Positions 1-1,048 of a stretch of DNA of 64,000 nt are shown here, piece after piece. The stretch is from Cohaesibacter haloalkalitolerans (GTDB lineage: Bacteria > Pseudomonadota > Alphaproteobacteria > Rhizobiales > Cohaesibacteraceae): the NCBI RefSeq assembly GCF_003574655.1, contig NZ_QNUM01000005.1, forward strand, positions 248,001 to 312,000, read 5' to 3'. Position 1 is the stretch's first letter. Every line of letters starts with the position of its first letter. The notes beneath the pieces are model-generated. The model did not search any database and was not told the DNA's origin. It saw nothing but the letters and a program-made list of their open reading frames with translations. A program made the translations under genes and the position numbers.

Positions 1-731
1 TCATGGTCGATAATTTCTCTCAGGGCGGTGCTGCCATCAACCAGCTCTGCACGGCCTTCGATCTGGGGCTGAAGGTTTTCGATCTGGCGATCGAACATCC
101 GACCGGCGACATCACGGTTGAGCCAGCCATGTCCGAGAAGGACTGTGTGGCAACCATGGCCTACGGCATGGAAGCCATCGCAGGTGGAACCGATCTGCTC
201 TGCCTTGGTGAAATGGGCATCGGCAATACGACGATTTCCGCAGCTCTTTTCTGTGCCCTGTTTGGCGGCACCGCTGAGGACTGGTGCGGTCGCGGTTCAG
301 GGGTTGACGACAAGGGCTTGCAGCTCAAGATCGACCTCGTCAACAAGGCACTCGACACTCACAAGGACTATCTGGACAAGCCTCTGGAAGTGCTGGCACG
401 CCTCGGTGGTCGCGAATTTGCCGCCATGTGTGGCGCTGTGCTCGCTGCCCGCATCAACAATGTGCCGGTGATCGTTGATGGTTTCAACACCACCGCCGCT
501 GTTGCTGTGCTGCACAAGCTTGATCCACGCACCCTTGACCATTGTGTCTTCTCTCATTGCTCTGCTGAAGGTGCTCACCGTCGCGCTCTTGATGCAATGG
601 GCAAAACCGCGATTGTCGACCTTGGCTTCCGTCTCGGCGAGGGCACCGGTGCTGCCGTTGTGGCTGGCCTTGCCAAAGCCGCCTGCCAGATGCACAACGG
701 GATGGCAACCTTCGCCGACGTCGGGCTCTGA
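1..731 (+). CDS. cobT: Nicotinate-nucleotide-dimethylbenzimidazole phosphoribosyltransferase, C-terminal part
   Basis: The enzyme transfers ribose phosphate from nicotinate mononucleotide to dimethylbenzimidazole, making alpha-ribazole phosphate for the lower ligand of cobalamin in the cytoplasm. About 242 residues are visible, roughly the last 70 percent of a protein usually near 340 residues. The frame is open to the window edge, so the true start lies upstream. Family signatures seen are GEMGIGNTT near visible residue 68, FSHCSAEGAH near 187 and LGEGTGAA near 213. The last of these carries the Glu known to be catalytic in Salmonella CobT. A strong terminator follows at 772-804. No other cobalamin gene is in the window. 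Confidence 0.95.
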   Translation, partial: MVDNFSQGGAAINQLCTAFDLGLKVFDLAIEHPTGDITVEPAMSEKDCVATMAYGMEAIAGGTDLLCLGEMGIGNTTISAALFCALFGGTAEDWCGRGSGVDDKGLQLKIDLVNKALDTHKDYLDKPLEVLARLGGREFAAMCGAVLAARINNVPVIVDGFNTTAAVAVLHKLDPRTLDHCVFSHCSAEGAHRRALDAMGKTAIVDLGFRLGEGTGAAVVAGLAKAACQMHNGMATFADVGL

Positions 732-771
732 GCCACTTCGTCTGGGATTGCCCCGGATAATCAAATCCATG

Positions 772-804
772 CAAAGCCGGCTTCATGCCGGCTTTGTCTT
801 TTTT
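772..804 (+). terminator. Rho-independent terminator after cobT
   Basis: A perfect 10-bp stem (772-781 with 787-796) has a 5-nt loop and is followed by a T-rich run to 804. It lies 41 bp after the cobT stop and separates cobT from the leader of the next gene. Confidence 0.85.
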
Positions 805-896
805 GTCTGTGAATGCTCATCTCGGGCCTTCCTGTGTACTTTGTCGCGCTTCGATATTTACAGGTCGGAAGCTGGCTGATAGCTTTCAAAGGCTTA

Positions 897-1024
897 TCCA
901 TGTTCAGCTAGGGTTCCGCTGCTTGTGCAGGTCTGGACCGAGCGCTGCTATGAGCCCGAGTGGGCAGACACCTGAAAGACGAAAAATCTAGGGGGGATGG
1001 ACAAGGCACGTAACTCGTGTGTCC
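897..1024 (+). promoter_or_regulatory. ykkC-family riboswitch candidate (guanidine-I or a subtype-2 relative) with overlapping switch hairpin
   Basis: CTAGGGTTCCG at 908-918 is followed at once by a perfect hairpin (CTGC 919-922 with GCAG 927-930) and then GTCTGGACCGAG at 931-942. This is the conserved 5' half of the ykkC aptamer as I know it (CUAGGG-UUCCG, hairpin, CUGGUCCGAGAG), with one base changed in the second box. Further on are a GCCC/GGGC hairpin (954-965), a small AGA/TCT hairpin with an A-rich loop (977-989) and a G-run (991-996). These sit where the family has its GGGA-AAAA-CCC-GGG element. TCCAT (897-901) can pair with ATGGA (997-1001) as a closing helix. That 3' strand overlaps the first arm of a second hairpin (999-1003 with 1020-1024, plus 1007-1010 with 1016-1019), so the two folds exclude each other. 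The EamA gene starts 25 bp later. The family call is fairly safe; the ligand is open. Confidence 0.7.
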
Positions 1025-1048
1025 AAACCAATCGTTTAAAGGTATTCC

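Follow-up and report, generated by a model that had tools for sequence, protein, structure and literature searches.

The window, a 64,000-nucleotide stretch of the Cohaesibacter haloalkalitolerans genome, begins with a cobT-like gene, followed by an RNA leader and by the gene that the leader is predicted to control, which encodes an EamA-family transporter; the features are listed in Table 1. An intrinsic-terminator-like hairpin after cobT sets the leader apart from that gene, and the histidine kinase gene that comes next after EamA lies on the opposite strand, so the transporter gene stands alone. Among NCBIfam models the transporter is matched best by TIGR03340 (phn_DUF6), at 119 bits and thus below the cut-off of 288.15; weak SMR matches were obtained as well, and no solved relative was found when PDB sequences were searched at E 1.

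Table 1. Features of the leader and its flanking genes in the window
Feature	Position	Strand	Basis or remark
cobT-like gene	3-731		Pfam DBI_PRT; upstream of leader
Intrinsic-terminator-like hairpin after cobT	771-797	+	1 found in 700-1100, shuffle mean 0.5
Promoter-like site TTTACA-17-TAGCTT	857-885	+	8/12 matches; position relative to P0 in relatives
P0 5′ strand UCCAU	897-901	+	partner 997-1001; alignment and covariation
P1 (905-908/944-947), upper helix and hairpin, with boxes CTAGGGTTCCG and CTGGACCGAG	905-947	+	Rfam match, alignments
Subtype-diagnostic residue C (A in guanidine-I)	943	+	numbering from the available text of PMC6031431, Rfam alignment
P2 hairpin GCCC-GAGU-GGGC	954-965	+	alignments
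Pocket strand ACACC, equivalent of PRPP aptamer A74-C78	968-972	+	Rfam alignment, numbering from the available text of PMC6031431
Putative anti-Shine-Dalgarno strand, ACCU (970-973) and AGACGA (977-982)	970-982	+	duplex energies, folds
P3 (977-979/987-989, AGA/UCU), A-rich loop, A990, G991	977-991	+	alignments
P0 3′ strand AUGGA, predicted to be drawn also into extended P4	997-1001	+	covariation, local folds
P4 hairpin 1006-1010/1016-1020, extended in the window by 998-1002/1021-1025	998-1025	+	consensus of 42 segments
Ribosome site UCGUUUAAAGGU	1032-1043	+	ligand-free model: 1040-1043/970-973, 1032-1037/977-982
EamA-family transporter gene, 284 aa	1049-1903	+	Pfam PF00892, 60 bits; predicted controlled gene

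Scanning of positions 800-1100 with cmscan gave a single Rfam match up to E 10, to the Guanidine-I model RF00442 at 897-996 (40.9 bits, E 3.2e-6; gathering cut-off 63). A scan of the whole 64 kb gave no match reaching a gathering score, and a search of the whole genome with RF00442 recovered the leader (E 1.2e-5) and nothing else up to E 1. Both ykkC boxes, CTAGGGTTCCG at 908-918 and CTGGACCGAG at 933-942, are present with a CUGC/GCAG hairpin (919-922/927-930) between them, as the first-pass annotation of this DNA had described, and the unusual 3′ half that it had remarked on, AGA/TCT around an A-rich loop, was found at 977-979/987-989. Together with P1, P2, P3 and the significant covariance-model score, the boxes identify the RNA as a member of the ykkC family. 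The fold energy of 880-1050 is ordinary (z −0.67, with 47 of 200 shuffles folding as well).

Relatives of the leader and their link to EamA

A model (R1) was built from 12 aligned window-like leaders, that of the window included, with a hand-written structure. It gave 48 matches in total, comprising 43 distinct sequences with that of the window among them; these group A leaders score 79.6-125.8 bits, compared with at most 42.8 bits for guanidine-I copies, the window and 11 others being themselves part of the model. Searches with R1 matched 12 of the 18 genomes of the window's genus, 14 of 385 genomes of the class (E 0.001; three above 90 bits) and 17 of 398 of the phylum (two above 80 bits), the two larger searches having been run with stricter filters that lose weak matches. 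The weak matches across class and phylum (28-43 bits) have A at residue 49, except for loci L131 and L133, which belong to the second lineage (group B) described below. A gene-blind DNA pattern returned 35 stretches from the contig collection, mostly alphaproteobacterial, of which 33 contain the full RNA. Named isolates among the leaders include Cohaesibacter marisflavi, Ruegeria, Marivita, Notoacmeibacter and Rhodobium.

An EamA homologue lies 39-117 nt downstream in all 48 R1 matches, 33 of which came from the gene-blind pattern, and the encoded proteins, some of them cut by contig ends, are 43-82% identical to that of the window. EamA is also the next gene in each of the 51 loci counted (43 of group A and eight of group B), and no TauE partner occurs among them. 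When 199 genomes of the order were searched with RF00442 at E 0.01, 48 genomes gave 57 matches, of which 42 exceed the cut-off and 15 fall short of it; each of the 15 lower-scoring matches lies directly upstream of an EamA homologue, and not one of the other 42 lies beside one. Of the 199 genomes, 16 encode an EamA homologue at E 1e-40; the 15 sub-cut-off matches belong to 15 of them, and in the sixteenth (locus L016) the RNA is interrupted by an insertion. Comparison thus demonstrates the link between RNA and EamA gene at the sequence level. No other widespread operon partner emerged when flanks of 1.5-8 kb were compared across the 43 loci: cobT and the histidine kinase gene recur together in five (the window, L004, L005, L006 and the C. 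marisflavi locus L119, where cobT precedes and the kinase follows as in the window), a dehydrogenase-like ORF occurs in four at differing places, and four Rhodobacterales-like loci have one upstream gene in common; the remaining large clusters were taken for shadow frames and rejected. Also rejected was phn_DUF6 proper as a partner, the 30 loci at the best phn_DUF6 genes (of 43 matches in 41 genomes) giving one chance-level R1 match, at L089 (E 0.083).

Some individual loci merit mention. The contigs of L105 (labelled Mesoflavibacter) and L118 (Anaerolineaceae) carry both RNA and EamA, and may be mislabelled or contaminated bins or the result of transfer; with 43% identity, the EamA of L118 is the furthest from that of the window. 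At L148 (1501-1613) there is an apparently decayed copy, with 58.7 bits for R1 and no Rfam match at E 1, in which about 100 nt lie between P0 and P4 and the EamA downstream is open. The 5′ half of the RNA alone is found in Notoacmeibacter marinus (L129, 7373-7392, reverse strand), where R1 finds no copy and the half appears to be a remnant, whereas another Notoacmeibacter sp. (L126) retains both RNA and EamA. Two genomes, G521 and G442, each have two guanidine-I copies on one contig (L053/L064 and L056/L063, respectively), and by eye one copy of each pair precedes a TonB-dependent-receptor-like ORF. A TonB-dependent receptor is an unusual partner for a guanidine-I RNA.

In the alignment of the 43 distinct rows, which was fitted to the model so that its pair counts lean towards the model, 97.1% of 1032 cells are paired, a value reached by 0 of 500 shuffles, and slid structures pair only 23-45%. 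Changes on both sides occur in eight pairs, with P0, P1, the P1 upper helix and P3 contributing two each; these amount to 62 cells, and none of the 500 shuffles reached either the number of pairs or that of cells. Further pair types number 15 and are not above chance (499 of 500 shuffles equalled or exceeded this number). P0 is 97.2% paired with two compensated pairs, confirming the closing helix 897-901/997-1001 that had been proposed, and the long-range pair of G991 with C969 is C-G in all 43 relatives. The outer modelled pair of P3 is G-C in 23 relatives, A-U in 16, G-U in one and other in three in the model-fitted alignment, and A-U in eight and G-C in four of the rows in a 12-row MAFFT alignment; because it is A-U or G-C across relatives, the AGA/UCU change is a compensated one, which the first-pass annotation had raised as a possibility. 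Comparison therefore establishes the aptamer, comprising P0, P1 with its upper helix, P2 and P3. The check set beforehand, for a covariance-model match and for covariation, found both (RF00442 at E 3.2e-6 and the 43 relatives), and the leader is confirmed as a genuine ykkC-family riboswitch candidate. If the leader were instead a structured RNA recognised by a protein, or a thermosensor, and not a metabolite binder, this would agree with there being no known ligand. Such a leader is extremely improbable, however, given that the pocket strand and the boxes are among the invariant columns and that, in the available text of PMC7266159, four metabolite classes have been validated on the ykkC scaffold.

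Pocket residues and subtype assignment

The available text of PMC6031431 sets guanidine-I RNAs, which have A46 and lack P0, apart from subtypes 2a and 2b, which have a pyrimidine (C49) at the corresponding place. The equivalent of position 943 is C in all 43 group A rows (42 by script and the last, L097, by eye) and in all eight group B loci, whereas all 67 of the other ykkC loci compared have A there (30 of the order's 42 matches above the cut-off, 13 from the class, 15 from the phylum and nine from further searches, with one place in G116 counted twice); none of these has an EamA gene (E 1e-5) within 1.7 kb. The RNA shares with Guanidine-I (RF00442) P1, the upper helix, P2, P3, both boxes and the long-range C-G pair, but differs from it in C for A46, C for G at the 72 position, A for G88, the presence of P0 and the sub-cut-off score. 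A divergent guanidine-I riboswitch, sensing guanidine that EamA would export, is thus very unlikely: although RF00442 is the only Rfam match and the transporter has its weak SMR matches, this reading has to contend with a score of 40.9 bits where the cut-off is 63, with C at residue 46 in all 51 counted copies, with the replacement of ACACGG by ACACC[UC] in 43 of 43 rows (ACACCU in the window) and with a conserved P0. Membership of guanidine-I was ruled out on residue 46, the pocket strand and the score; the same features, C943, ACACCU and the score, bear out the earlier suggestion of another ligand subtype, and guanidine is unlikely to be the ligand.

The pyrimidine C943 and the conserved 5′ and 3′ extensions that form P0 are those of subtype 2. 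Like the ppGpp riboswitch (2a), the window RNA has P0 and equivalents of C49 and C75, but the G96 equivalent, G991, is invariant (15 aligned rows), at a place that in 2a, by the available text of PMC6031431, is occupied by A, C or U or left empty, and window-type loci have no amino-acid gene. With the PRPP riboswitch (2b) it shares P0 and the equivalents of G48, C49, C75, C77, C78 and G96, but the window has A at the G95 equivalent and the downstream gene, EamA in 48 of 48 matches, encodes a transporter instead of a purine biosynthesis enzyme; furthermore, 2b is reported from Firmicutes in the available text of PMC5912903, whereas the window-type RNA occurs in Alphaproteobacteria. The same 48 of 48 leave no place for the NUDIX or HAD hydrolase gene of the NDP subtype (2c). 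They do agree with subtype 2d, which is tied to phn_DUF6 in what is available of PMC5912903 and to EamA (formerly phn_DUF6) and TauE in what is available of PMC7266159, a 2020 review in which its ligand was undetermined. The match to 2d, as described in these sources, consists of an EamA gene directly downstream, the ykkC scaffold and the subtype 2 residue; the differences are that no TauE partner was seen here and that the window EamA lies below the phn_DUF6 cut-off. We consider 2d, known by description, to be the best fit for the window RNA, set there by the downstream gene and the subtype 2 residue. EamA, which the first-pass annotation had regarded as an unusual partner, is thus a published partner of 2d. 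A literature search with subscription journals largely outside its coverage found no later paper naming the 2d ligand. The ykkC RNAs strikingly illustrate how a single scaffold can evolve to bind several unrelated ligands.

Equivalents of G48 (G942), C49 (C943), A74-C75-A76-C77-C78 (968-972) and G96 (G991) are retained in the window. Its residue at the G95/G88 place is A990, an adenine being found there in 41 of 43 group A rows; all 43 of these rows contain ACACC, and groups A and B have the pocket bases in common. In the PRPP aptamer, according to the available text of PMC6031431, G48 and C78 hold the 5′-phosphate, C49 and C77 its metal, and A5, G6, A101 and G105 the pyrophosphate; our comparison covers the 5′-phosphate site. 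Because the equivalents of G48, C49, C77 and C78 are kept, an oxyanion ligand is predicted, probably one that carries a phosphonate, a phosphate or a similar group; G48 and C77 equivalents also occur in the guanidine-I consensus, so only C49 and C78 speak for it. These two PRPP-like bases sit beside a description of 2d, in the available part of PMC5912903, that instead calls it most similar to guanidine-I.

The PRPP-like bases could also belong to an EamA-linked ykkC class apart from the published 2d, with a ligand of its own. The EamA neighbour in all 51 loci without TauE, the 119 bits of the window EamA against the TIGR03340 cut-off of 288.15, and the 30 loci at the best phn_DUF6 genes, of 43 matches, without an R1 match beyond E 0.083 would suit such a class. 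We nevertheless regard it as improbable: the available accounts sort subtypes by downstream gene, with 2d comprising phn_DUF6/EamA and TauE (a label perhaps applied loosely), R1 is not expected to detect RNAs distant from group A, and one ligand is the simpler explanation because groups A and B have the same pocket bases.

Complementarity to the ribosome site and the proposed switch

A promoter-like site lies 10-13 nt from P0 in 37 of the 43 leaders and elsewhere in two, with none in the other four; sites scoring at least 8/12 occur in 20 of 43 leaders, compared with 4.7% of shuffles, and a stricter scan (9/12) of 700-1100 found none. The transcript probably starts a few bases before P0. On the 3′ side, comparison establishes P4 (285 of 294 cells paired in the consensus of 42 distinct segments), and in 30 of 43 relatives the local fold of lowest energy is a downstream hairpin that takes up three or more bases of the P0 3′ strand, consistent with the competition between P0 and a downstream hairpin that had been put forward earlier. 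The same aptamer might act through P4 on transcription, by intrinsic or Rho-dependent termination, for which the conservation of P4 just 3′ of the aptamer and the T runs seen by eye after P4 in a few members (L115, L121, L004) could be cited. This is unlikely, since there is no terminator-like site within 800-1100 of the window, a T run is by eye absent from most members and the complementarity found in the leader is aimed at the ribosome site.

That complementarity, between the P3 5′ strand (taken from ACACC on) and the ribosome site, is established by comparison of duplex energies: the mean is −11.7 kcal/mol for a leader's own pair, −10.2 kcal/mol for swapped partners and −7.0 kcal/mol for shuffled sites, and swapped partners were as low as own ones in 0 of 2000 permutations (computed on the 40 of 43 leaders that remain once near-identical sites are removed, which guards only partly against shared ancestry). 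In an offset scan in steps of 5, offsets of −5, 0 and +5 gave 0 of 500, +10 gave 13 of 500 and the other 15 offsets 53-479 of 500, and with one member per clade the median z is −3.9 (28 clades), −2.4 (8) and −2.2 (5). Consecutive duplex pairs number 14 in L112 and 12 in L009; the window has four (970-973/1040-1043) plus six (977-982/1032-1037), and its unconstrained minimum-energy fold contains the 970-982/1032-1043 pairing. Weak duplexes are found in L118 (−4.3 kcal/mol), L101 (−5.7) and L125 (−6.4). As far as the available published accounts extend, this complementarity, P4, the promoter-like site 5′ of P0 and the switch model set out below appear to go beyond what has been described.

We propose that in the absence of ligand 970-982 would pair with 1032-1043 and mask the ribosome site, while the P0 3′ strand would be drawn into extended P4; ligand would stabilize P0 and the P3 pocket, freeing the ribosome site so that the transporter, probably an exporter, could be made. 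The guanidine-I, ppGpp and PRPP switches are ON upon ligand binding in the available text of PMC6031431. When the aptamer fold was forced on leaders ending with the start codon, the ribosome site opened in 37 of 43 (27 by more than 0.1); once 15 nt of coding sequence had been added it opened in 25 of 43 (16 by more than 0.1, while 13 closed by more than 0.1), and under a stricter folding constraint in 23 of 43. The folding supports the ON-switch model only in part. The region first annotated, 897-1024, holds the aptamer but misses what is likeliest to do the switching, 970-982 with 1032-1043; the first-pass reading as a whole stands for subtype, P3 and competition, and falls short on the EamA partner and the extent of the switching region. 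On the evidence of sequence, we are fairly confident that the leader is a subtype 2 ykkC riboswitch, most probably one of the orphan 2d kind, and that it turns on translation of the EamA transporter.

Group B comprises eight loci (L015, L017, L018 and five more) in which P0 is UCGAC/GUCGA, compared with UCCAU/AUGGA in group A, two pairs differing on both sides. By eye, G[AG]UCUC next to the start codon lies opposite GAGA[UC]C of the P0 3′ strand in all eight loci, the pairing occurring in U-G, U-A and C-G versions; the energy program chose another partner for this strand in two of the eight. The designs of groups A and B both suggest a translational ON switch. It is possible, though we offer this tentatively, that subtype 2d binds a small oxyanion of phosphonate, phosphate ester or sulfonate-like type that occupies the place of the PRPP 5′-phosphate and is exported by EamA, and that one aptamer drives two independently evolved translational platforms, with the P3 strand masking the Shine-Dalgarno sequence in group A and the P0 strand masking the start codon in group B. 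The 43 and eight leaders, the proposed transcript start, the switch helix and the pocket-based guess at the ligand make the question of the 2d ligand directly testable. At L016 (reverse strand), the EamA leader of G146, the insertion interrupts the group B RNA after GGCAACT; by eye it is roughly 160 nt long with inverted repeats inside, and the EamA there is open.
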